DNA of 64,000 nucleotides from Salinirussus salinus (lineage in GTDB: Archaea; Halobacteriota; Halobacteria; Halobacteriales; Haloarculaceae): the NCBI RefSeq assembly GCF_009831455.1, contig NZ_WOWO01000002.1, positions 620,001 through 684,000 of the forward strand, written 5' to 3'. Positions 7,245 through 19,231 of this stretch are shown one piece after another. Position numbers and translations under genes: made by a program. Position 1 is the stretch's first letter, and each line of letters starts with the position of its first letter. The notes beneath the pieces are model-generated. The model had not been told where the DNA came from. It saw only the letters and a list, made by a program, of their open reading frames with translations, and made no database searches.

Positions 7245-8594
7245 TCACTCGAGGGCGGCCCCGCAGGCCGGACAGAAGACCGCCCCCGGGTCGTGTGACT
7301 CGCCACACTCCGGGCAGACGTCGTCCGCGGTCGCGCCGGCCGCGTCACCGGCCCCGGCGGCGCCGCCGGCCGTCGCGTCTGTTCCGGCATCGGCCCGTTC
7401 GTCCCCCGAGTCGGCTCCGGGCGACAGCGGGTCTTCGTCGTCGTCGCCGTCGCCCGGGGGCGTGTAGACCCGGGTGTTGCTCACGTCGTCGGTCAGCTCC
7501 GGGTCCCCGGGACCGGTGTCGACGGTCGGCGAGTCCGATTCGTCCGAATCACGGACACCGTCCGTCTCAGTCGGGTCTGCCGTATCCGGGGACGTGTCCG
7601 GCGGGGAACTGGAGGATCCGGAGGAGGCTGACGGGGACGTCGACCCCGTTCCGGATCCCGACCCGGACGTAGACCCGGACCCCGTCGAGGGCCTCGACGG
7701 GGAGGAAGTAGAGGTGGAGCCGGAAGCCGGCCCACCGGCGCCAGTCCTGTCGGTGGTCGGGCGCGCGAAGTCCGGGTACCGCTGGCCGGTCCGGAGCTCC
7801 GACCGCGGGACGTCGGGCTCGCGGACCCGGTCGACCACGCCGGCGAGTGTCTGGACCAGCAGGTAGAGAACCGACAGTCCAACGGGGACAGTGACGGCGG
7901 CGGCGACCGCCGCGGGGAGCGTCGCGCCGGCGACGGTCACGCGCCCGTCGACGAGCCAGACCGCGCCGTCGACGCCGACGGCTCCGGCGACACCCTCGAC
8001 GACGGACACGAGGTAGTCCCGGCGCCCGGCCAGAACCGCGCCCCCGGTGAGCAGGGCGACAGCGAGAGCCAGGAAGCTCAGTCCCGCGGCCGCCGCCAGC
8101 GCCCGCGGCGCGGACAGGGAGAAGACCCGGTAACCGTACGCGACGGTCCGCACGAGCACGAAGAGGGCAGCGAGGACGAGCACGGCGAAGACCGGCCACG
8201 GCGGCCCGGCGAGTGCGACGGTCGCCACGGCGGCCACCGCGAGGAGGACGACCGGCGGAGCCAGCAGCGCCGACGGGTGCCGGTAGCGGTACTGCTGTGC
8301 GATGTTGCCGCTCTCGTTCGTCAGCTGGCCGACCAGCAGCCGGGCCCCGACAGCCGCCGGGACCAGCACCCACGCCAGGAGCGCGACGGCGACCAGACCC
8401 GTCTTCGCGCCGGTCCAGGGCTCGGGCGACAGCGAGACGTTCAGCGCGTCCGCGCCGAAGGTGAGCGCGGCCCCCGAGAGGCCGACCCACAGCGCGTAGA
8501 CGACGAGCGCGAGCAACCCGCCACCGAACAGTCGGGCCTCACCGGCGCCCGCGAGACGGAAGGAGGAGACGAGATCCTCGCGTCGTCCGGCCAT
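7245..8594 (-). CDS. multi-pass membrane protein with C-terminal zinc ribbon
   Basis: A 449-residue protein. About 260 N-terminal residues form several hydrophobic helices (for example LFGGGLLALVVYALWVGL and PAAVAAAVTVPVGLSVLYLLV). A Ser/Thr/Gly/Asp-rich low-complexity linker of about 140 residues follows. The protein ends in one zinc ribbon with two CxxC pairs, in CPECGE and CPACGA. The zinc ribbon is probably cytoplasmic. I do not know the function. It begins one base after the stop of the zinc-ribbon/FHA protein, so the two are surely co-transcribed and may form a membrane complex. Confidence 0.75.
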   Translation of the reverse strand: MAGRREDLVSSFRLAGAGEARLFGGGLLALVVYALWVGLSGAALTFGADALNVSLSPEPWTGAKTGLVAVALLAWVLVPAAVGARLLVGQLTNESGNIAQQYRYRHPSALLAPPVVLLAVAAVATVALAGPPWPVFAVLVLAALFVLVRTVAYGYRVFSLSAPRALAAAAGLSFLALAVALLTGGAVLAGRRDYLVSVVEGVAGAVGVDGAVWLVDGRVTVAGATLPAAVAAAVTVPVGLSVLYLLVQTLAGVVDRVREPDVPRSELRTGQRYPDFARPTTDRTGAGGPASGSTSTSSPSRPSTGSGSTSGSGSGTGSTSPSASSGSSSSPPDTSPDTADPTETDGVRDSDESDSPTVDTGPGDPELTDDVSNTRVYTPPGDGDDDEDPLSPGADSGDERADAGTDATAGGAAGAGDAAGATADDVCPECGESHDPGAVFCPACGAALE

Positions 8595-8595
8595 A

Positions 8596-10338
8596 TCAGG
8601 GGCGCCCGACGCGGAGCGTGACCACGCCGGAGAGGCCGAGTTCGTCGCCGGGGCCGATGGGCCGGCGGTCGCCTTTCTCCATGCGCTGGCCGTTCACGGC
8701 CGTCGGGTTGTCGCCGAGGTCGACGACGTAGAACTGGCCGTTCTCGCGGACGAAGCGGACGTGCTCGCGGTGGACGCGGACGGCCTCGTCCTCGTCGCCG
8801 TCGGTGTCGATGATGATCCGCCGGACCTGGCGGCCCACGGCGTCGCCGTCCGCGACGCGGACTTCGCGCCCGCGGGCGCTGAGCGTCAGCACCTCGGGTG
8901 CGGGCTCGGCGTCCCCGGCTCCCGACTCCCCGCCACTCTCCGCCGCGTCGTCGCCACCGGACCGGTGCGGCTCGAGGTGCTCGCCACAGGAGGCACAGTA
9001 GACGGCCCCCTCGTCGACTTCGGCGCCACACTCGGGGCACTCGGTCAGCGGCTCGGGTTCGGACCCGGTCTCGGTCAGGTCCGCGCCACAGGAGGCACAG
9101 AAGTTGTCGTCGGCCGCGACCTCCGCACCGCAGTCGGGACAGGCCTGCTGTTCCTCTTCGGCCTCGTCCTCCCGCGGAAGCTGGGAGACGTCGGCGCCAC
9201 ACTCGGGGCAGAAGCTGGCGTCGGCGGTCACCTCCGCGTCACACTCCGGACAGGCGAGCACCTCCGCGGAGTCGGTTTCTCCGGTATCGTCCTCGTCTTT
9301 TTCGGCGTCGGCCTCCGCAGCCTCGGCCGTCTCTGCCGTGTCGGCCTCTCCCGCGTCGGCCTCCGTTGCCTCCGCTGTGTCCGCCTCCGCAGTCCCCGCT
9401 ACCCCTGACTCCGCGGGCTCCCCTTCCGGCCCAGGTGACCCCTCTGCTCCCTCCGCCTTCTCCGCTGTCCCGGCCGGGTCTGAGGCGGCCTCGCCCGCGA
9501 CGCCGCTGTCGGCCTCCTCGCCCGCGACGCCGCTGTCGGCCTCCTCGCCCGCGACGCCGCTGTCGGCCTCCTCGCCCGCGACGCCGCTGTCGGCCTCCCC
9601 GTCCGCTCCCGTCGGCTCAGCGGGCTCTTCCGGCGACCCTTCCTCCTCCAGGGTAGGCGCCTCGTCCGAATCCGGTTCCTCTCTTAGGTCCGGTTCCTCG
9701 TCAGCGACCGCTTCCTCGTCCCCGGCGGGCTCGTCGTCCCCGCCCGGTTCGTCTTCCACAACTGGCTCGTCGTCGGCTGAGTCACCGCTTTCGTCGTCTT
9801 CGTCGGCGGCGTCTTCGGTGTCGGCCGCTTCGTCTGCGTCCGCGTCGGGGGCGTCCGGGTCCGCGCCGGCCAGCCCCTCATCGTCGCCGAGCAGCGGGCC
9901 GTCGGCTTCCGGTGAGTCATCGTCACCGAGGAGTCCGTCGTCGGACGAGCCTTCCTCCCCGAGTGGAGCGTCGTCGTCGAACGGGTCGTCGCCGAGGGGG
10001 CCACCCGCAGCCCCGTCGTCCGGCTCGTCCTGGCCCAGCGACCCGCTCTCGCCTGCCGGAGCCGCGTCCGCCCCGGCGAGAGGGGACTCCTCCTCGGACG
10101 GCCCGGATCCGCCCACGGGAGCGTCGCTCCCGTCGGCGTCGGGCGCGCCCTCGACATCGCCGCCGGCGTCGGCACTGTCTCCGTCGGCCCCGTCCTCGAC
10201 AACCGGGTCGCCATCCTCGTCGCCCTCGTGTCGCCACTCCCCACAGTCGGGATTGGTGCACCAGCCGCCAGCGGCGGTTGGGTCGAACTGCTCTCCGCAA
10301 ACCGGACACTCGACTGTCGAACCCGTGCCTTCGCTCAT
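8596..10338 (-). CDS. acidic multi-zinc-ribbon protein with C-terminal FHA domain
   Basis: This 580-residue cytoplasmic protein starts with a zinc-binding motif (CPVCGE, Cys 11 and 14, then WCTNPDCGEW). About 330 residues of Asp/Glu/Ala/Gly low complexity follow, including four exact 9-residue repeats (residues about 248-283). Three more zinc ribbons lie between about residues 361 and 456. The last 100 residues are a forkhead-associated domain with the HREHVRF and NPTAVNGQRM landmarks. FHA domains bind phosphothreonine peptides, so signalling or scaffolding is likely. ATG at 10338 begins directly before the first ribbon and is preferred over the ATG 57 bases upstream. The membrane partner is one base downstream. 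Confidence 0.8.
   Translation of the reverse strand: MSEGTGSTVECPVCGEQFDPTAAGGWCTNPDCGEWRHEGDEDGDPVVEDGADGDSADAGGDVEGAPDADGSDAPVGGSGPSEEESPLAGADAAPAGESGSLGQDEPDDGAAGGPLGDDPFDDDAPLGEEGSSDDGLLGDDDSPEADGPLLGDDEGLAGADPDAPDADADEAADTEDAADEDDESGDSADDEPVVEDEPGGDDEPAGDEEAVADEEPDLREEPDSDEAPTLEEEGSPEEPAEPTGADGEADSGVAGEEADSGVAGEEADSGVAGEEADSGVAGEAASDPAGTAEKAEGAEGSPGPEGEPAESGVAGTAEADTAEATEADAGEADTAETAEAAEADAEKDEDDTGETDSAEVLACPECDAEVTADASFCPECGADVSQLPREDEAEEEQQACPDCGAEVAADDNFCASCGADLTETGSEPEPLTECPECGAEVDEGAVYCASCGEHLEPHRSGGDDAAESGGESGAGDAEPAPEVLTLSARGREVRVADGDAVGRQVRRIIIDTDGDEDEAVRVHREHVRFVRENGQFYVVDLGDNPTAVNGQRMEKGDRRPIGPGDELGLSGVVTLRVGRP
9491..9598 (-). repeat. four tandem 27-bp repeats inside the FHA gene
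   Basis: Four consecutive 27-base units (9491-9517, 9518-9544, 9545-9571, 9572-9598) appear identical by eye. They encode four copies of the nonapeptide EEADSGVAG in the acidic linker. Exact DNA identity points to recent slippage or unequal crossing over, so copy number may vary between strains. Confidence 0.85.
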
Positions 10339-10381
10339 GCTGTGAGATGTTCGTAACCGACGCAAAAATCTGTCGCCCGTT

Positions 10382-10531
10382 TCAGATCTCGTCACCGGCG
10401 TGGAACAGCGTCAGCTCCTCGGCCTCGTAGATATTGATCAGCTCGTTGACAATCTCGTCGTAGGATTCGTCCTCTACCCGCAGCGAGTCGAGGCGCTGAA
10501 CGGTGTCCTCGTCTATCTCGATCGTGGCCAT
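10382..10531 (-). CDS. small antitoxin-like DNA-binding protein (VapB/DUF7557-like)
   Basis: A 49-residue protein starting MATIEIDEDTVQRLDSLRVE. It has a beta strand followed by helices (DESYDEIVNELINIYEAEEL), the layout of haloarchaeal VapB-like or ribbon-helix-helix antitoxins and regulators. It lies between leuB and the FHA gene in the same orientation. No toxin (PIN-domain) gene is adjacent, so it is either an orphan antitoxin or a regulator. Translation is clean from ATG to TGA, and third codon positions are mostly G or C. The DUF number is from memory and tentative. Confidence 0.6.
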   Translation of the reverse strand: MATIEIDEDTVQRLDSLRVEDESYDEIVNELINIYEAEELTLFHAGDEI

Positions 10532-10619
10532 ACCCGGCGTTCGCCGGCGACGGATATAAGCCCAGCGGGGGCAGCGGGGGGATTCCCGGTGCCGGCGCGA
10601 GCGGCCGAACTCACACAGC

Positions 10620-11600
10620 CTACAGCCGGTCGAGAACCGCCGCCGTCACGTCCTCGGTGCCGGCGTCGCCGCCCAGGTCCGGGGTGTGTGGTCCCTCGGC
10701 GAGCGTCGCCTCCACGGCCTCACGCAGGCGAGCGGCCTCGTCGGGGTACTCGAGGTGCTCGAGCAGCATCGCCGCCGAGAACAGCATCGCTGCGGGATTG
10801 GCGACCCCCTGGCCGGCGATGTCGGGCGCGGAACCGTGGACCGGCTCGAACAGGGCGTTCTCGTGTCCGATGTTGGCGCTCGGCAGCAGGCCGAGCCCGC
10901 CGACCAGCCCGGCCGCCAGGTCCGAGAGCATGTCGCCAGCGAGGTTGGGACAGACCACAACGCCGTAGTCCTCGGGATGGATGATGAGGTGCATCGCCAG
11001 CGCGTCCATCAGGGCGGTGTCGTAGTCCGCATCCCGCTCTTCCGCGACCCGCTCTGCGGTCTCCAGAAAGAGCCCGTCGGTCTCGCGCATGACGTTTGCC
11101 TTGTGCGCGACCGTCACGTCGTCGTAGCCGTTGCGCTGCGCGTAGCGGAAGCCGTACTCCGCGATCTCCCGTGAGGCCTCCTCGGTGACGACGCGGGTCA
11201 GCGTCCGAACCCCCTCGGTGATCTCGGACTCGATCCCCGAGTAGACCCCCTCGGTGTTCTCCCGGATAAAGACCAGGTCGGTCTCGGGCTTCACGGCGTC
11301 CAGTCCCGGGTACGCCCGGGCCGGGCGGACGTTGGCGAACGAGCCGACGACCTCCCGCAGCGGGAGGATGACGTCGGCGGCCGTCTCGCCGACCGCGCCG
11401 AACAGCGTCGCGTCGGCCTCCTCGGCGACCGCCCGCGTCTCCGCGGGCAGGGCCTCGCCGGTCTCTTCCAGCGTGGCGTCGCCGGCCTCGGCGTGGACGA
11501 ACTCCAGGTCGACGGGCAGCGCCTCCAGGACCTCGACGGCCGCCGGCGTCACTTCCCGCCCGATCCCGTCGCCCGGGATGACCGCGATCTCGTGAGTCAT
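10620..11600 (-). CDS. leuB: 3-isopropylmalate dehydrogenase
   Basis: This 326-residue enzyme oxidises and decarboxylates 3-isopropylmalate with NAD in leucine synthesis. It starts [17 protein letters not shown], has the substrate arginine region [12 protein letters not shown], the kinase-like [12 protein letters not shown] loop, and the C-terminal cofactor segment [18 protein letters not shown]. Isocitrate and homoisocitrate dehydrogenases are close relatives; the short length and linked leu genes favour LeuB. ATG at 11600 is the conserved family start. In other haloarchaea I recall leuB directly after leuD; here leuD is about 7 kb away, beyond a secretion cluster. The CBS gene diverges upstream. 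Confidence 0.9.
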
Positions 11601-11754
11601 GCCCCGACCTGTGCCCGGCGGGCGCATGGGGGTTTCGGTCGCGCTGCCGGAGCGTTCTGCGGGCCGGGCGACCGGCACCCCGAAGGCGGACGACTGCCCG
11701 GGTCTGTGAGGATCGACCGTTAAGCATTAGCAGGGCACCTGCGAGAGTCAATCC

Positions 11755-12159
11755 ATGGACGACATCTTCGTCGCGAGCCTGATGTCAAACGGCGTCGTCT
11801 CGGTGACCAGCGACACGCTCGTGGAGGACGCTGCCCAGCGACTCCGCGAGAAGGAGGTCGGGTCGCTGGTCGTCGTGGACGACGAGGGGCGGCTCGAGGG
11901 GATCCTGACGAGCACGGACTTCGTCGCGATCGTCGCCAAGAGCCGGCCGAAAGCCGACACGACTGTCGAGCGCTACATGACCGAGAAGGTTGTCACCGTC
12001 GGCCCCCAGGACCCGATCCGCGACGCCGCGGACGCGATGATAACCTACGGGATCAACCACCTCCCCGTCGTCGACGGCGACGACACCGTCATCGGGATGC
12101 TCTCCTCGACGGACCTCACCGCCTACCTCTCCGGCGTCCAGGAGCCCTCGCCCGCGTGA
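11755..12159 (+). CDS. stand-alone tandem CBS-domain protein
   Basis: A 134-residue protein made almost wholly of two CBS motifs (about residues 8-62 and 72-128), with the characteristic endings GILTSTDF and GMLSSTDL. Paired CBS domains form a disc that binds adenosine nucleotides such as AMP, ATP or S-adenosylmethionine and regulates a partner. No partner domain is fused, so the target is unknown. It diverges from leuB. An A/T-rich TTAAGCA at about 11720-11726 is placed as a TATA box for a short-leader mRNA. Confidence 0.85.
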   Translation: MDDIFVASLMSNGVVSVTSDTLVEDAAQRLREKEVGSLVVVDDEGRLEGILTSTDFVAIVAKSRPKADTTVERYMTEKVVTVGPQDPIRDAADAMITYGINHLPVVDGDDTVIGMLSSTDLTAYLSGVQEPSPA

Positions 12160-12223
12160 AGACGGTGCGCCGCGTTCCGGTCCCGCGGTCGGTCACCGGG
12201 GTCGGCCCCGGCGCGCGAACACC

Positions 12224-13066
12224 TCACACGGGGTCGGCGACGAACGTGACCGCCTCGACGGCGTCGGGCGGGACATCCTCGACGCCCGTGGTGTCGACTT
12301 CGACGACCACGTGTACGACCCCGCCGGGCTGGAGACCCTCGGCCGCGACGCTCGTGAGGTCGCGCTGGCGCGGGCCGCGGACCCCCGCGTCCACCCACGT
12401 CGGGAAGCCGAGCACGCCGGGCGCGGTGCCGTCGACGTCGACGGACAGGTCGACCGCCGTGTCGCCGTCGTTGACCACGAGGAAGGCCACGCGGTCGCCG
12501 GCACCCGGGTTCGGAAACCGCCCGTCGGCGGTCTCGCCGACGTAGGTCAGCGCGTTCATGTTGAGGTCCTCCAGGCGGAGCCCCCGGAGTGTGCCGCCGT
12601 CGTCGGCCAGGACGTGCTCGGAGTCGAGCACATCCGGGTCGTCGACCTCCAGGCGGATGCTCGTCTCGCCGCTCGGGGCCCCGCTCTCCTCCCGGTCGTC
12701 ATCGCGGTCGCCGTCATCGCGGTCCTCGTCCCGGTCGTCGTCCGGGCTGTCTCCGTCGTCAGTCTCGTCGCGGTCCTCGTCTTCTCCGTCGTGATCGTCG
12801 CCGTCGTCCTCGCCGCCCGAACTCCCCTCGTCGTCCCCGGGGTCGTCGGGCTGCTGACCGTCGGAGTCGTCGCCCCCCTCGCCTTCCTGGTCCTGGAGGC
12901 CGACCGACGACTCGAAGCCCTCAGAAGAAGGCGTTCGGACGCCGACGGGAATCCAGTTCTCGGGGTTCCTCGCGTTCCCGACGCCGAATGCTCCGGAGCC
13001 GAGAAACGTCCCGCTACCCGTCAGGAGCGTGCCGGCACCGATGACGAAGTTCCGGCGGGACGTCAT
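12224..13066 (-). CDS. Tat-signal secreted protein with acidic linker and DUF1102-like beta domain
   Basis: A 280-residue protein beginning with a twin-arginine signal (SRRNFVIGAG, then a hydrophobic stretch to GSGAF). A roughly 85-residue Asp/Glu/Gly/Arg-rich linker follows. The C-terminal beta-rich domain has VAFLVVNDGDTAVDLSVDVD, the same pattern as NDGSDAVDFSID in the plus-strand neighbour at 13296. The acidic linker suits an extracellular protein in high salt. It is transcribed divergently from the DUF1102 pair across a shared inverted-repeat promoter, so it is probably a co-regulated minor subunit or anchor of the same surface structure. That role is inference. Confidence 0.7.
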   Translation of the reverse strand: MTSRRNFVIGAGTLLTGSGTFLGSGAFGVGNARNPENWIPVGVRTPSSEGFESSVGLQDQEGEGGDDSDGQQPDDPGDDEGSSGGEDDGDDHDGEDEDRDETDDGDSPDDDRDEDRDDGDRDDDREESGAPSGETSIRLEVDDPDVLDSEHVLADDGGTLRGLRLEDLNMNALTYVGETADGRFPNPGAGDRVAFLVVNDGDTAVDLSVDVDGTAPGVLGFPTWVDAGVRGPRQRDLTSVAAEGLQPGGVVHVVVEVDTTGVEDVPPDAVEAVTFVADPV

Positions 13067-13102
13067 GAGGTCTCTTCACTCGCTGAAAAAGAGCGGTAAG
13101 GT

Positions 13103-13243
13103 CTTTGTTCTGACCTGCTTGAAGATGGTATGGCTGTGCTTGAAGCGACGAGAGGGCGAAATCCCGGTGCGCTCGCTGGCCTCAAGCAGGGCTTGAAAAC
13201 CGGAAATATGCCGTGAAAACGCTTCAAGCAGGTCAATACAAAG
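13103..13243. promoter_or_regulatory. divergent promoter with near-perfect 22-bp inverted repeat
   Basis: Between the divergent secreted-protein genes, the arm at 13103-13124 and the arm at 13222-13243 are reverse complements at 20 of 22 positions. The inner 14 bases (TGACCTGCTTGAAG and its complement) are exact. Each arm points outward toward a gene start, about 37 bases from the ATG at 13066 and about 53 bases from the ATG at 13296. TGCTTGAA recurs at 13137-13144, and one-mismatch variants lie at 13181-13197. This looks like a shared activator or repressor site used by both promoters. Confidence 0.65.
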
Positions 13244-13295
13244 TGGTTGGGGTTCTAAGGTACTCCTACCGCAACACAAGCGGAGATTACCACCA

Positions 13296-13781
13296 ATGAA
13301 GCTCACAAGACGAAACGCGTTGATCGGACTTGGATCGCTGGTCGCAGGCAGCGGTGCGCTCGTGGGCACGGGCGCGTTCAGTAGTGTTGAGGCAGATCGG
13401 ACTGTCTCTATCGGAACCACGGGCGATAACAGTGCTCTCCTCGGTTTCACTACTGGCCCGAACAGCTACAATGGAGTGAGTATCGACGGGGGTGGTAGTA
13501 CCACTCCGACGATCAGTATTAACACGAATTCGCTCAACGACGAGGCGACTACCAGATTCAACGGCGTACTCACCGTCACCAACGACGGTTCCGACGCGGT
13601 CGATTTCAGCATCGACGGGACGCCGTCGGGAGTGACATTCTACGACGAGAACGACGACGACCTCACGGGAACATCCGTCACACTTGACGCAAGCGGGGAC
13701 CCGGATCAGGATCTCGACCTCGAGATAAATACCAGGACCGCAACCGAGGGCGATACCAAAGTCACCTTCCTGGCAGAATGA
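13296..13781 (+). CDS. secreted DUF1102-like protein, copy 1
   Basis: A 161-residue protein with an N-terminal twin-arginine signal (TRRNALIGLGSLVAGSGAL), then GTGAFSSVEADRTVSI and a beta-rich, Asp/Thr/Ser/Gly-rich mature part. It has no membrane anchor or lipobox. A Shine-Dalgarno GGAG at 13282-13285 sits 10 bases before ATG 13296. The stop overlaps the next gene in ATGA, implying coupled translation. AFSSVEADR after the signal resembles the YFSD-type start of TasA/camelysin proteins, so a fibre or surface subunit is plausible but unproven. G+C is clearly lower than in flanking metabolic genes. Confidence 0.8.
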   Translation: MKLTRRNALIGLGSLVAGSGALVGTGAFSSVEADRTVSIGTTGDNSALLGFTTGPNSYNGVSIDGGGSTTPTISINTNSLNDEATTRFNGVLTVTNDGSDAVDFSIDGTPSGVTFYDENDDDLTGTSVTLDASGDPDQDLDLEINTRTATEGDTKVTFLAE

Positions 13782-14272
13782 GGGTCACTCGCAGGAACGC
13801 ATTGATCGGGCTCGGCTCACTCGTCGCAGGCAGCGGTGCGCTCATGGGCACGGGCGCCTTCAGTAGTGTGGAGGCAGACCGGACTGTCTCTATCGGAGTC
13901 GAAAGCGACAGTAGCGCGTTACTGGGCCTCTCGGTGGACGGGAGCTACGCTGGCCTCGCAAACGGTAACAGCGGCGGTAACACCGTCCAATTGAACGTGA
14001 CGCAGCTCAATGATAACGCCGTCACCAGATTCAACAACGGGTTCACGATAACGAACAACGGTAGCAATCCGGTAGACGTCAGTGTGAGTAACGTCCCGAA
14101 CGCTCTCTCTTTCGAGTATTCAGACGGAAGCGGAGGGACGACTGCCCTGTCAAGCTCCTCTGTGAATCTGACCGCTTCCGGCGACTCTCAAGCCTTCGAC
14201 GTTGTTGTTGACCTCAGGAACAATTCTGTCCCTTCCGATAAGGACATCACTATTTCCGCTAATTCCAGCTGA
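13778..14272 (+). CDS. secreted DUF1102-like protein, copy 2
   Basis: A 164-residue paralogue of the preceding protein. The first 40 residues differ at only 3 positions (MRVTRRNALIGLGSLVAGSG..., then GAFSSVEADRTVSIG), while the mature domains have diverged strongly. The mature part is Asn/Ser/Gly-rich with many N-x-S/T sites (for example NVTQL and NNGSN), suggesting N-glycosylation and a surface location. It starts inside the stop of copy 1 (ATGA overlap at 13778-13781), so the two are made together. A 60-base sample (14041-14100) has 30 G+C. Confidence 0.8.
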   Translation: MRVTRRNALIGLGSLVAGSGALMGTGAFSSVEADRTVSIGVESDSSALLGLSVDGSYAGLANGNSGGNTVQLNVTQLNDNAVTRFNNGFTITNNGSNPVDVSVSNVPNALSFEYSDGSGGTTALSSSSVNLTASGDSQAFDVVVDLRNNSVPSDKDITISANSS

Positions 14273-14356
14273 GGCGATAGCCGCCCGCTTACTCTGGCAA
14301 GCCTGAACTCGGGGAGGTTCCAAGCAACAAAGCCCAGCCTGTCCTCGCCCAGACTC

Positions 14357-15157
14357 CTACGTTGTATCCTCCACGGTTTCCGAATTGGTGTTACCGTCGG
14401 TGTCGAACGCCGTGACCTGGAGTTTGTAGGTCGTGTTCGCCTTGATCGTGTATCCCGACTCGGGTGGGACCTCTACGGCCGGGTTTCCTTTGGGGCTGTA
14501 CCTGTCTCCCGGTGGATTCGTCACTTCGCGATAGCCAACGACTGTTCCACCCGTCCCACTCTCGACGACCTCGAATTCGATTCTGTCCAAGTCGTTGTCA
14601 CCGTCATCGTCTCGGATGTCGACATTCTTGACTTCGAAGACGTTACTGTTGCCCTGGTTGTTCGCCGTGAACTCGTTGTCTTTGGCAGGCTTTTGGATCC
14701 GGATCGGTCCTTTGATCCGGCCGGACTGAACCTCAACCGAGCCGGAGGTATCGAGCGAAAACCCCGCGCCGGTCGCGCTCACAGTGTATGTAACTGTACC
14801 GTTTACCGAACTTTCGATATCCACGCTCTGTCTCTTCCCTGGGTCCAGCGTCAGCGTCACGAAACACCCGCTGCCGCCCTCGTTGTCATAGAGGGTTCCA
14901 TCCCCGCAGTTGTCTAAGGCGACGGTGATGTTGACGGAGTTATTCAAATTGTTCGTGAATTCGACCATGGGCTTACGGTCATTCCTTTTAACAGGGCCTT
15001 GGCCGACTATCCCGAGCAACGCATTGGAGTCGCTGGCAACGTCTATGCTCACGCCACGGTCTGCTGCAACTTCCGAAAACGCACCACTCTGATAGAGCGC
15101 ACCGCTCCCGATGGCGAGCGAACCGAGTCCGGCCAGGAAGCGTCTGCGGTCGACCAT
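14357..15157 (-). CDS. larger Tat-signal secreted protein with DUF1102-like N-terminal domain
   Basis: A 266-residue protein with a strong twin-arginine signal (DRRRFLAGLGSLAIGSGAL) followed by SGAFSEVAADRGVSI, the same junction as in the two smaller paralogues. The first beta domain (to about residue 150) has a pair of cysteines (DNCGDG and SGCFVT) that may form a disulfide. A second domain with an acidic DDDGDNDLDRIEF loop and a fibronectin-like end follows (TTYKLQVTAFDTDGNTNSE). ATG at 15157 starts two codons before the RR motif. It converges on the paralogue pair and diverges from the signal peptidase. A 60-base sample (14581-14640) has 29 G+C. Confidence 0.75.
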   Translation of the reverse strand: MVDRRRFLAGLGSLAIGSGALYQSGAFSEVAADRGVSIDVASDSNALLGIVGQGPVKRNDRKPMVEFTNNLNNSVNITVALDNCGDGTLYDNEGGSGCFVTLTLDPGKRQSVDIESSVNGTVTYTVSATGAGFSLDTSGSVEVQSGRIKGPIRIQKPAKDNEFTANNQGNSNVFEVKNVDIRDDDGDNDLDRIEFEVVESGTGGTVVGYREVTNPPGDRYSPKGNPAVEVPPESGYTIKANTTYKLQVTAFDTDGNTNSETVEDTT

Positions 15158-15225
15158 GTGTGTTCGTGATTCCGACGGAGCGGCCCCCGAGTGCCCGTCA
15201 GCTCTCCTTATGCTTACCTTACCGG

Positions 15226-15285
15226 TCAAGCAATAAAAACGGCTCCACTCGCTTCAGAGAGCGAAAAGCTCCACGAAACATATAC
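15226..15285. promoter_or_regulatory. divergent promoter region with TCAAGCA core and TATA box
   Basis: Between the minus-strand secreted gene (start 15157) and the signal peptidase, the core TCAAGCA at 15226-15232 matches the centre of the inverted repeat at 13.1-13.2 kb. ACATATAC (15278-15285) is a good TATA box whose expected start site (near 15307) lies just before ATG 15315. A/T-rich CAATAAAAAC beside the core could be the TATA element of the minus-strand gene. Confidence 0.5.
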
Positions 15286-15314
15286 GCGTCTGACCGAGTA
15301 GTGTGATACAGCGA

Positions 15315-16469
15315 ATGGGGGCTGGAACGTACGCGCGGTACGCGCTCGGGGGAGTCGTGGTGGTCCTCCTGCTCGCACTCCTGCTCGGCCAGCTGCTGGG
15401 CCAGCCGCTGCTGCTGACGTACGTCCAGACCGACAGCATGTCCCCGACCATCGAGCCCGGGGACGGCTACATCGTCCTCCCGAGTTCGGTCACCGGCGGC
15501 GTGAGCGAGGGCGACATCGTGCTCTACGAGGCCCAGGAGTTCGACGGGGGTGGGCTGACGACCCACCGGGTGGTCGGGGAGACCGATGAGGGGTACATCA
15601 CCAAGGGGGACAACAACCCCTTCACCGACCAGGACGGCGGCGAGCCCCCGGTCCAGGAGGGGCAGGTCGTCGGCGTCGCCCTCCAGGTCGGCGGCGGCCC
15701 CGTCACCATCCCCTGGCTCGGCGTGCTCGTCACGACAGTCCGCGGGCTGGTGACCGCCGTCGTGGGCGCACTGCTGGGTATCGTGGGCCTCGAAGCCGCC
15801 GGCGGGGGCGCGGTCGGCATCGTCGCCATCGTGGCGGGGCTCCTGATGCTGCTGGCGAGCGTGTTGCTGAGCGGGCAGCGCCCATCGCGGAGCTACAACC
15901 GGCGCCGGGGGTCGTTCGTCCTCCGTGGGGAGGTGCTCACGGTCCTGTTCGTGCTCGCGGTGCTCGTCCCCGCGAACGCGTCGATGGTGATCCCCGGCGG
16001 CACCGCGGAGTACACCGTCATCAGTTCGGAGAACCCCGCCGAAGACGACGCCGTCCGGCCCGGCGGGACGCTGGAGCTGCGCTACACCGTCCAGAACAGC
16101 GGGTTCGTCCCCCTGCACGCGGTCGTCGAGCCCGCGAGCAGCGGCGTGCGGGTCGACCAGCGGCAGCTCTCGGTCCCATTCCAGGGCAGCGCGTCGACGG
16201 GAGTCGAGCTACAGATCCCCGAGCAACCCGGCACCTACGCCCGCTACGTCCACGAACACCGGTATCTGGGGATCCTGCCGGGCCCGTGGATCGCGACGCT
16301 TCACCGGGTCCACCCGCTCGTGGCGCTCGGGGTGATCAACGTCGTCATCGCGGCGGTCGTCGCAGCGGTCACGCTCTACACCGTGGGGACCGGGCGGGTC
16401 CGGCTGCGCTCGCGGGCCCGCGAGGAGTCCGCCGGCAACAGGCTCCGGGACGCCCTGCGGCGGGAGTGA
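15315..16469 (+). CDS. signal peptidase I (S26B, SipW-like) with extra extracytoplasmic domain
   Basis: A 384-residue membrane protease. The first 130 residues are the archaeal/ER-type catalytic core: one transmembrane helix, Ser41 in TDSMSPTIEPGD, His84 in TTHRVV and Asp99 in KGDNN, a Ser-His-Asp set as in SipW. Two or three more helices follow (about 135-185 and 205-222). An outside beta domain of about 100 residues (GGTLELRYTVQNSGFVPLHAVV) and a final helix (333-355) complete it. It sits among four putative substrates and is likely their dedicated peptidase. ATG 15315 fits the TATA box better than GTG 15303. Confidence 0.88.
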   Translation: MGAGTYARYALGGVVVVLLLALLLGQLLGQPLLLTYVQTDSMSPTIEPGDGYIVLPSSVTGGVSEGDIVLYEAQEFDGGGLTTHRVVGETDEGYITKGDNNPFTDQDGGEPPVQEGQVVGVALQVGGGPVTIPWLGVLVTTVRGLVTAVVGALLGIVGLEAAGGGAVGIVAIVAGLLMLLASVLLSGQRPSRSYNRRRGSFVLRGEVLTVLFVLAVLVPANASMVIPGGTAEYTVISSENPAEDDAVRPGGTLELRYTVQNSGFVPLHAVVEPASSGVRVDQRQLSVPFQGSASTGVELQIPEQPGTYARYVHEHRYLGILPGPWIATLHRVHPLVALGVINVVIAAVVAAVTLYTVGTGRVRLRSRAREESAGNRLRDALRRE

Positions 16470-16557
16470 ACCGGGCGGCGGCGAGGGGAACGGGTCGCGA
16501 CGTGAGTGGGACAGACGGGGCGGGAGCGAGCCGCTGGCTGGCGTGTCTCACCGGGGT

Positions 16558-17916
16558 TCACTCCCGGCTGTCGTCCCCGGTGTCTTCCGTCCCGCCGGAC
16601 CAGAGGTCGTCTCCCGCAGCCTCATCGTCCTCCTCGGGCCACTCGAAGGCGTCCGCGTCGTCGCCCCTGTCGGCACCCTCCGTGTCACCGAACCCATCGT
16701 CGTCGAAGAGGGACTCGACGTCGGGCGCTTCCGTGCCGCCTCCGAAGGCGTCCCCGCCGTTCCCGGCCGCCTCGACCTCGGGGAACGACCCGTCGTCCTC
16801 GAAGTCGAAGCCGCCGAACAGCCAGCTGTGGACCGCGGAGGTCGAGGGGGCGTAGACGTAGGCGACGTCCTCCCGGCCCCGGAGGACGTAGAAGGCGTTG
16901 TCGTCCTCGATGACGCGGTTGTTAGTGTCGATCGCGAGGTCGACCAGCCCGGAGAGACTGCTGACTTTGACGACAGTCTGGTACTGGTCGATACCGGGGA
17001 TCTCCCCGCGGGTGATCCAGTCGTTGAACTGCTTGCGCTTCTCCGCCAGCAGACACCGTTCGCGCTCGGCCTCGCTCAGCTCGATCAGGTCCCGCCGGGA
17101 GGCGTAGGCGAGGCCGGCGAGGCCCAGGAGTCCGGCGAGGAGCCCGACCGGCGCGCCGACCCGCGTCAGCAGCGGGGGCTGGACGGCCTCCCGGACCGTG
17201 TCCGTCCGCAACGGCGTGCCCGCTGCTACCGTCTGTGCCCCGTCCACGCGGTAGGTGGGGGGCCGGACCACCAGCGGGAGGGAACTCTCGTGCTCGCGGG
17301 AGAGGTCCTGGCCCGCGACGGAGCCGTTCACCGACGTCCGCGCTCTGACGACCACCTGGACGTCGCCGACCTGCGCGCCGAGGTCGGACTCCACCCGGAA
17401 GATCCGCCGGGCGACGCGGGTGGTGTTGACCGAGAGCGACACCTCGTGTGCCTCCCCGGGCGCGAGCGACCCGGAGGTCTCGGAGGCCAGCGGCCGGACG
17501 TCACGCCAGAGGGTCTCGCCGTCCTCGTTCACCGCGCGGACGAGAAGCCGCGCCTCCGTCCGGGCGGTCACCTCGGGGTCCCGGTCCCCGTCCTCCCCGC
17601 TGAGGTCGTAGGCGTACGTGTAGTTCGCGTCGAGAACCGGCATCAGGCGCATGTAGTACAGCGGGCGCTCGCGCACGGTCTCGCCCTCCGACCAGACGGT
17701 GCTGTCGTTGCGCACCAGCGCACTGTGCTCGAACTCCGTCGACTCGTTCAGCGATGACACCACCACCTCCTCGGTCTCGTACTCGGTGCTGGCGTGGGCG
17801 CCGTAAGTGCCGACGCCCGCCAGGAGCGTCAGAACCACCAGCCCCACGACGACCGCGGGGAACCAGTCGCTGACCAGCCGGCGGAGCCGCAGCGTGAGGG
17901 GGATCTCGTCGTTCAT
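16558..17916 (-). CDS. DUF5305-like membrane protein
   Basis: A 452-residue protein with one N-terminal helix (WFPAVVVGLVVLTLLAGVG), an outside beta-rich domain of about 200 residues carrying several N-x-S/T sites (NESTEF, NDSTVW, NTTRV), a second helix (GAPVGLLAGLLGLAGLAYA) and a cytoplasmic part ending in a long acidic tail. This layout and the sequence match what I recall of DUF5305, which is found beside signal peptidases in haloarchaea. It converges with the signal peptidase and may anchor, assemble or sense the secreted beta proteins. No enzyme motif is visible. Confidence 0.75.
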   Translation of the reverse strand: MNDEIPLTLRLRRLVSDWFPAVVVGLVVLTLLAGVGTYGAHASTEYETEEVVVSSLNESTEFEHSALVRNDSTVWSEGETVRERPLYYMRLMPVLDANYTYAYDLSGEDGDRDPEVTARTEARLLVRAVNEDGETLWRDVRPLASETSGSLAPGEAHEVSLSVNTTRVARRIFRVESDLGAQVGDVQVVVRARTSVNGSVAGQDLSREHESSLPLVVRPPTYRVDGAQTVAAGTPLRTDTVREAVQPPLLTRVGAPVGLLAGLLGLAGLAYASRRDLIELSEAERERCLLAEKRKQFNDWITRGEIPGIDQYQTVVKVSSLSGLVDLAIDTNNRVIEDDNAFYVLRGREDVAYVYAPSTSAVHSWLFGGFDFEDDGSFPEVEAAGNGGDAFGGGTEAPDVESLFDDDGFGDTEGADRGDDADAFEWPEEDDEAAGDDLWSGGTEDTGDDSRE

Positions 17917-17965
17917 ATTCGGATGCGGTCATGTCCGGAATCGCGGCCCGGTCCGGGACTCCGGG

Positions 17966-18496
17966 TCACTCCAGCTCCGGTGGCCGTTCCGTCCGGCCGA
18001 GTTTCGTCTGTCGGTTCCGGTACACGTGGACGGCGGCGGAGACGGCGAAAGCGGCGACCACGAGCCCGGCCCAGACGATGTCGGGGGCCGAGACCGGCAC
18101 GAGGTCGAACCACGCAAAGGCGAGCACGGCGCCGCCGATCCCCGAGAGCCAGAGGTAGTACACTCCCCACGGGACCGACTCCTCGGGCACGATGTCCATG
18201 TAGACGTTGAGGCGCTCGGCGGCCGGCGTCAGCTCGACCTGGTCGTCCCACTCGATGATCCCTGCCTCCTCCATCGCCGGGAGGTGGGTCTGCTGGAGGG
18301 AGGTGTAGGTTCGCTTGCGCTCGCTCGAAGTTACCTCGTCGACGGACTTGTCGTGCTCCCAGGCCGCGACCTGTTCGGCCAGGTCCGACAGCGTCACTGG
18401 CTCGTCCCGGTGCTTGCAGTAGTGGAGCGCGTAGCGGCGCCGGTGGTTGCTCAGCAGCTCGAAGGTCTCGTCGCGGTTCACCTGTCTCTCCCCCAT
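17966..18496 (-). CDS. membrane-anchored winged-helix protein (DUF7344-like)
   Basis: A 176-residue protein. The first 95 residues are a winged-helix domain (ETFELLSNHRRRYALHYC, then TLSDLAEQVAAWE and the wing near GIIEWDDQVELT). Two transmembrane helices follow (VYYLWLSGIGGAVLAFAWF and WAGLVVAAFAVSAAVHVY). HTH proteins of this layout, called DUF7344 as I recall, are common beside secretion and surface loci in haloarchaea. It lies 49 bases upstream of the DUF5305-like gene in the same direction and could be the cluster's regulator, acting on the inverted-repeat promoter. That link is inference. Confidence 0.75.
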   Translation of the reverse strand: MGERQVNRDETFELLSNHRRRYALHYCKHRDEPVTLSDLAEQVAAWEHDKSVDEVTSSERKRTYTSLQQTHLPAMEEAGIIEWDDQVELTPAAERLNVYMDIVPEESVPWGVYYLWLSGIGGAVLAFAWFDLVPVSAPDIVWAGLVVAAFAVSAAVHVYRNRQTKLGRTERPPELE

Positions 18497-18604
18497 CTAG
18501 TTCCGTTCAGTGAACCGTTGTAATCTTCTCCTAATCAACGTTTGGTTCGGATCGGCACCCGCTAGTCTGCGGCGTGACGAGCGCTGAACGGGGGTAAAAG
18601 CGTC

Positions 18605-19231
18605 CTACTCGGGGCTCCCGACGTAGGGGAGTCCGGCAGCGGTCTCCTCGATAGCGTTCTGATTCGACTTCATCAGCGCCGTCGTGTCCCAGATGCCGTC
18701 GACGAGTGCCTTGCGCTGGCCCTCGTTGACGGTGACGCCGACTTCCTGTCCGCCGTACGAGACAGTCTCCGCGTCGATGTCGATCTCGATCTCGCCGTCG
18801 GGGTTGTCCTCGACCCACTGCTGGAGGTCGTTTATCGTCTCGTGGTCGGCGGTGACCGTGGGGATGCCCAGCGCCAGACAGTTTCCCGCGAATATCTCGG
18901 CGAAGCCCTCACCCACGAGCGCGTCGATGCCCCAGCGCATCAGCGCCTGCGGGGCGTGCTCGCGAGAGGAACCACAGCCGAAGTTGTTGTTGACCACCAT
19001 GATGGAGGCGTCCTGGAACCGGTCCTCGTTCATCGGGTGGTCCTTGGGGTTGTCCTCGTCATCGAACCGCTGGTCGAAGAAGGCGAACTCCCCGAGGCCG
19101 TCGAAGGTGACGACCTTCATGAACCGCGCCGGGATGACCTGGTCGGTGTCGATGTCGTTCCCGCGGATGGGGATGCCCGTCCCGGAGACGTCCGTCACTT
19201 CGGGGATCTCGACCTCGTCCTCGCCCGTCAT
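18605..19231 (-). CDS. leuD: 3-isopropylmalate dehydratase, small subunit
   Basis: A 208-residue swivel subunit of isopropylmalate isomerase, which with LeuC interconverts 2- and 3-isopropylmalate. It has [15 protein letters not shown] near the N terminus and the substrate loop [16 protein letters not shown]. Its start overlaps the leuC stop by four bases (ATGA), so it is translationally coupled to its partner. It is the last gene of the minus-strand leuA-ilvBNC-orf-leuCD run. Next downstream is the membrane-anchored HTH gene rather than leuB. Confidence 0.95.

Follow-up and report, generated by a model that had tools for sequence, protein, structure and literature searches.

A probable Tat-fimbriae (tafi) locus of divergent sequence in the haloarchaeon Salinirussus salinus

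Seven genes form one conserved module

Which surface structure would be built by a group of adjacent haloarchaeal genes for secreted proteins, a signal peptidase and two further membrane proteins? The locus lies in a 64,000-nucleotide stretch of Salinirussus salinus DNA, hereafter the window, and a first-pass annotation had read seven of its genes as one functional module, a fibre system equivalent to that of TasA in Bacillus with its own peptidase. We found the seven genes to be one real, conserved module and, very probably, a divergent Tat-fimbriae (tafi) locus that builds thin surface fibres. The earlier reading had the kind of system right, but that kind already has a name: it has been published as tafi, with NCBIfam models and a solved pilus, and what is new is this cluster within it.

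All seven open reading frames were recovered from the list of frames of the 64-kb window, at or near the positions first assigned to them. The sole coordinate correction concerned the third twin-arginine (RR) protein, on the minus strand, whose start was moved to 15157 (M-V-D-R-R-R).

12224..13066, minus strand: acidic Tat-signal secreted protein (open reading frame; acidic linker and divergent Taf-type beta domain)
13296..13781, plus strand: tafi pilin-like subunit 1 (TafE 96.5 bits; PDB 9p0a_C, E = 2.9e-17)
13778..14272, plus strand: tafi pilin-like subunit 2, tandem paralogue (TafE 95.5 bits; 9p0a_C, E = 9e-15)
14357..15157, minus strand: larger Taf-type subunit (TafE 46 bits, TafA 37, TafC 26)
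15303..16469, plus strand: archaeal type I signal peptidase (TIGR02228, 55.9 bits; alternative ATG at 15315)
16558..17916, minus strand: DUF5305 membrane protein (PF17231, 162 bits)
17966..18496, minus strand: DUF7344 winged helix with two membrane helices (PF24035, 107 bits)

The start of the 13778 gene overlaps the stop of the 13296 gene by 4 nt. Twin-arginine signals were plain by sequence in all four secreted proteins (12224, 13296, 13778 and 14357), as first described, and the two membrane proteins beside the peptidase likewise proved to be the DUF5305-like protein and the membrane-anchored winged helix that had been recognized there. The GAFSxVxADRxVSI junction ascribed to the group was present in the 13296, 13778 and 14357 products but not in that of 12224, which has the Tat signal and GAF without ADRxVSI. 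Six of the eight TafE-profile matches found in the whole genome at E ≤ 1 adjoin the two peptidases with an outer domain, and the gene set recurs in haloarchaea; the clustering is therefore beyond chance.

The secreted subunits are homologous to a solved pilus

The mature profile of the 13778 family aligned over its entire mature length with chain C of PDB entry 9p0a (E = 2e-27), the solved Tafi pilus from Natrinema sp. J7-2; the two pilins also matched this chain singly. Against the NCBIfam models TafA (NF052520), TafC (NF052521), TafE (NF052522) and TafF (NF052523), the best scores were 96.5 bits for TafE (cut-off 155), 40 for TafA (190) and 32 for TafC (410), TafF matched none of the cluster proteins, and no cluster protein reached any of the four equivalog cut-offs. 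Taf subunit roles are therefore not transferable to the cluster proteins. The missed cut-offs do not bar 13296 and 13778 from tafi, since the Natrinema relatives of the 9p0a pilin, at 70 to 78 bits for TafE and 56 for TafA, also fall below them.

The two remaining secreted proteins are more elaborate. The 14357 product consists of a Taf signal and N-terminal domain followed by a C-terminal beta domain; its N-terminal part matched 9p0a_C (E = 3.8e-5), a full-length relative (241 bits) lies within a cluster of Natronorubrum thiooxidans (L160), and we regard the protein as a candidate tip or adapter subunit. For the 12224 product, the TafE match was confined to the signal region (17 bits) and a weak full-length relative (37 bits) stands beside Taf genes at another locus (L139). 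Its mature part holds 72 acidic vs. 15 basic residues, and it is possibly a tip, adapter or spacer subunit. The DUF1102-like label initially given to secreted proteins of the cluster had to be given up: in Pfam no secreted cluster protein scored above cut-off, and relatives from tafi clusters likewise had no DUF1102 match. A genome search with PF06510 was also negative, but taken alone it is a weak test, as it gave the family in no genome whatever.

AlphaFold2 predicts a beta-sandwich for the mature 13778 product (pLDDT 83); the core is modelled with confidence and the N-terminal strand, residues 8–14, is loose. This agrees with the beta-rich character noted for the secreted subunits. Polymerization through an N-terminal donor strand has been described for TasA (PMC9674648). 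In the pilin family, residues 1–18 are the best conserved (0.65 vs. a mean of 0.36 for the windows beyond), which could partly reflect recognition by the peptidase instead of a donor-strand role; elsewhere the family is divergent, with a mean column identity of ~20%. This strong divergence outside the N-terminal segment, as well as the extra beta domain of 14357 and the acidic linker of 12224, would suit separate surface or matrix proteins that have the Tat signal and the peptidase in common and form no joint fibre. We consider such an arrangement very unlikely, as both small subunits have a homologue in the chain of a solved pilus, and in the profile search the match runs along the whole mature part. 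Their genes are also tandem and overlapping, and across loci such genes are found with a single peptidase gene plus DUF5305 and DUF7344.

The TasA-type genes lie elsewhere in the genome

Searched with Foldseek, the 13778 model matched FimA, the Tafi pilus, the Pyrobaculum bundling pilin and the Sulfolobus thread with modest E-values (3e-3 to 1e-2). The first-pass annotation had proposed a fold comparison with TasA and the archaeal bundling pilin, and the outcome was divided: the Pyrobaculum bundling pilus 7ueg was matched with a probability of 0.98 (0.84 for the second match listed alongside), but TasA was absent among the 50 best fold matches. The likeness to Pyrobaculum bundling pili is one of a similar beta-sandwich, and there was no sequence match at E ≤ 10.

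The match to 7ueg, itself related to TasA, bears on whether the cluster could be a biofilm fibre operon of the TasA/camelysin family with a SipW-type peptidase. The window and the Bacillus TasA/TapA/SipW system do follow one logic, in which a signal peptidase of its own accompanies secreted fibre subunits of beta-sandwich type, and the window peptidase has a weak similarity to SipW (29 bits). We nevertheless hold this reading to be very unlikely. Membership by sequence was not supported: searches with Pfam and NCBIfam gave no match to TIGR04088 or PF12389 (Peptidase_M73) among the window proteins, the window subunits have no match to the families of the Bacillus system, and the Taf pilins carry the ADRxVSI segment in place of its SipW-type signal motif. 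With the SipW model NF046067 the window peptidase scored 28.7 of the 190 bits needed, whereas a peptidase on contig 3 of the same genome is far nearer (73 bits). The latter belongs to a SipW/TasA-type cluster (L013, 4219-12166) with three proteins above the TIGR04088 cut-off, one of them with a VWA domain, a PF12389 match below its cut-off, further RR-signal proteins and DUF7344-like genes nearby. As TIGR04088 proteins and a SipW-like peptidase occur there, the TasA/camelysin label fits that locus, and the window cluster is better described as tafi.

Contig 4 holds another tafi cluster, a compact one in which each of the five kinds of gene is represented (L012, 7952-12461):

7952-8419, contig 4: TafC-like subunit
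8416-9063, contig 4: DUF7344
from 9330, contig 4: TafE-like subunit
10051-11202, contig 4: peptidase
frame ending at 12461, contig 4: DUF5305

A single archaeal genome hence has three fibre-type loci, two of them tafi and one, set apart, of the SipW/TasA type, and every locus includes a peptidase. The possibility that the contig 4 peptidase is a recent duplicate of the window peptidase was rejected, the two falling in separate clades.

The module extends beyond the published tafi models

According to a paper that cites the original description (PMC12687288), TafA, TafC, TafE and TafF belong to Tat-fimbriae, surface structures of haloarchaea whose components leave the cell through the Tat system. 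The survey of gene neighbourhoods in other haloarchaea, proposed with the original reading, supported one module. We found 266 peptidase relatives from named genomes, kept 80 and counted the 65 loci with full flanks; when contigs of genomes were searched, a single-protein query gave no peptidase relatives and an alignment query succeeded. DUF5305 was present at 61 of the 65 loci, DUF7344 at 59 and Taf-like subunits at 60, with ~3.2 such subunits per locus. By their titles, the peptidase relatives came from haloarchaea or archaeal MAGs, the one exception being a MAG labelled Mollicutes that has the haloarchaeal cluster.

In the clusters where TafA exceeds its cut-off (L073–L080), the peptidase with the outer domain occurs again alongside DUF7344 and DUF5305, and in one of these (L075) TafA, TafC, TafE and TafF are each above cut-off. 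Within the family sample, the peptidase occurred together with a TafA-type protein in 43 genomes and alone in 5, TafA occurred alone in none, and 12 genomes had neither (P = 4e-9, Fisher's test, ignoring kinship). Across the class sample, the outer-domain peptidase query matched 232 of 294 genomes while TafA was above cut-off in 22, so the tafi module extends well past the sequences accepted by its equivalog models. At the Natrinema loci of 9p0a-pilin relatives, the order is pilin, long subunit, peptidase and DUF5305, with DUF7344 nearby.

Compared with haloarchaeal tafi, the window thus has homologous RR-signal pilins and the same genes for the outer-domain peptidase, DUF5305 and DUF7344. It differs in that none of its proteins passes the TafA, TafC, TafE or TafF equivalog cut-offs, the pilins are two in tandem, one subunit, of the 14357 type, has an additional beta domain and another an acidic linker, and the gene order is not the same, DUF7344 and DUF5305 standing together on the minus strand.

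The signal peptidase carries an outer beta domain

The peptidase scored above the cut-off of TIGR02228 (51.85 bits), which makes it an archaeal type I signal peptidase. The prediction of a Ser-His-Asp enzyme with an added outside domain was borne out: Ser45, His88, Asp103 and Asp109 are invariant in 40 relatives, either Asp103 or Asp109 being the catalytic aspartate, and residues 233-322 form an extra outside beta domain ahead of the last membrane helix. Hydropathy and arginine-rich loops suggest that the chain begins with a helix and the outside catalytic domain, continues with two helices, an inside loop and another helix leading to the outside beta domain, and ends in a helix and an inside tail. 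In Foldseek searches with the AlphaFold2 model, the catalytic part matched human SEC11A/C. The peptidase model also gave many matches to MSP/PapD-like domains with probabilities up to 1.00 and E-values of 1e-3 to 2e-2, among them 3q48, 5ghu and 4ay0 and the named chaperones CupB2, YadV and Caf1M. The search output did not print the aligned residues, and these matches probably belong to residues 233-322. Searched in isolation, the outer domain gave weak or marginal Pfam matches to Cep192_D3, ASH and HYDIN, consistent with an MSP/PapD-like fold. Profile matches of the outer domain to designed, WD-repeat and armadillo proteins in the PDB were discarded as composition artefacts, and profile-profile comparison found the outer domain, DUF5305 and the pilins to be mutually unrelated.

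The outer domain thus probably shares its fold with PapD-like pilus chaperones and MSP/ASH domains, at marginal sequence similarity, but unlike the chaperones it is fused to a signal peptidase of the archaeal membrane, and a chaperone role would be an idea drawn from the models. A peptidase with such a probable outer domain suggests that signal-peptide removal may be tied to fibre assembly, a link that is testable. A bolder and, in our judgement, improbable version would make the tafi peptidase a fused processing and chaperone machine, whose outer domain takes over each freshly cut pilin and holds the pilin's empty groove until a further donor strand can fill it. If true, one polypeptide would cover the tasks of signal peptidase and PapD-type chaperone, which are divided in chaperone-usher pili.

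Besides the window peptidase, the genome has at least three further candidate type I signal peptidases, among them a plain SEC11-like frame (C3:144838) that has no outer domain. That the 15303 peptidase processes the precursors of its own cluster is suggested by their co-location only.

Just before the outer domain, after membrane helix 4, the peptidase has an AxA-M stretch (ANASM, residues 224-228; window positions 15972-15986). Most relatives have ATAAM at this site and the Met is invariant. By its letters the stretch resembles a signal-peptidase cut site, and self-processing of the peptidase is conceivable.

A possible route of assembly and its control

Taken together, these parts would allow the following route. 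The four RR-signal proteins would leave the cell folded, through the Tat pathway, and the dedicated membrane signal peptidase (15303) would cleave them directly in front of the conserved FSSVEADRTVSI segment. Once free, the N-terminal strand could enter the groove of the adjacent beta-sandwich subunit by donor-strand exchange, with the tandem pilins 13296 and 13778 polymerizing into a thin surface fibre and the 14357 and 12224 products perhaps forming its tip, an adapter or an anchor. At the membrane, the fibre may be held or nucleated as it grows by DUF5305 and probably also by the outer beta domain of the peptidase, and the membrane-bound DUF7344 winged helix may turn the cluster genes on and off.

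The DUF5305 protein is laid out as a helix, an outside beta domain, a helix and a conserved inside domain. The DUF7344 gene, separated from it by 49 nt, is probably the first in a transcript running on into DUF5305 and probably encodes a regulator. Our literature search found no text on DUF5305 and none on the Natrinema pilus; the conserved co-location shows where the functions of DUF5305 and DUF7344 should be sought.

The divergent promoter region of the subunit genes contains a 22-bp repeat:

13103..13124, minus strand: candidate promoter/operator element CTTCAAGCAGGTCANNACAAAG, upstream of 12224-13066
13222..13243, plus strand: second exact copy of CTTCAAGCAGGTCANNACAAAG, candidate promoter/operator element upstream of 13296

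The two copies have the same orientation relative to the transcription of 12224 (minus) and 13296 (plus). They are the only ones in the 3.37-Mb genome, where every other site differs from the element at three positions or more. All three exact copies of CTTCAAGCA in the 64-kb window fall in the 12224/13296 intergenic region. A scan for bacterial promoters was set aside as uninformative for archaeal promoters.

Genomic setting

Together with a CBS-domain gene, the cluster parts leuD (18605-19231) from leuB (10620-11597), the whole spanning 10620-19231. In twelve sampled relatives leuD and leuB lie within 100 bp of each other; other relatives have different genes in the gap, such as chemotaxis-transducer-like, exchanger-like and response-regulator-like frames. 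The site looks like an insertion hot spot within the leu operon.

A viral origin of the cluster was considered and dropped, the searches giving five weak generic peptidase matches in viral contigs and none in PHROGs. The G+C content is 0.61–0.65 at window positions 12001-16000 vs. ~0.69 in the surroundings, which is in line with either a recent transfer or subunits rich in Asn, Thr and Ser.
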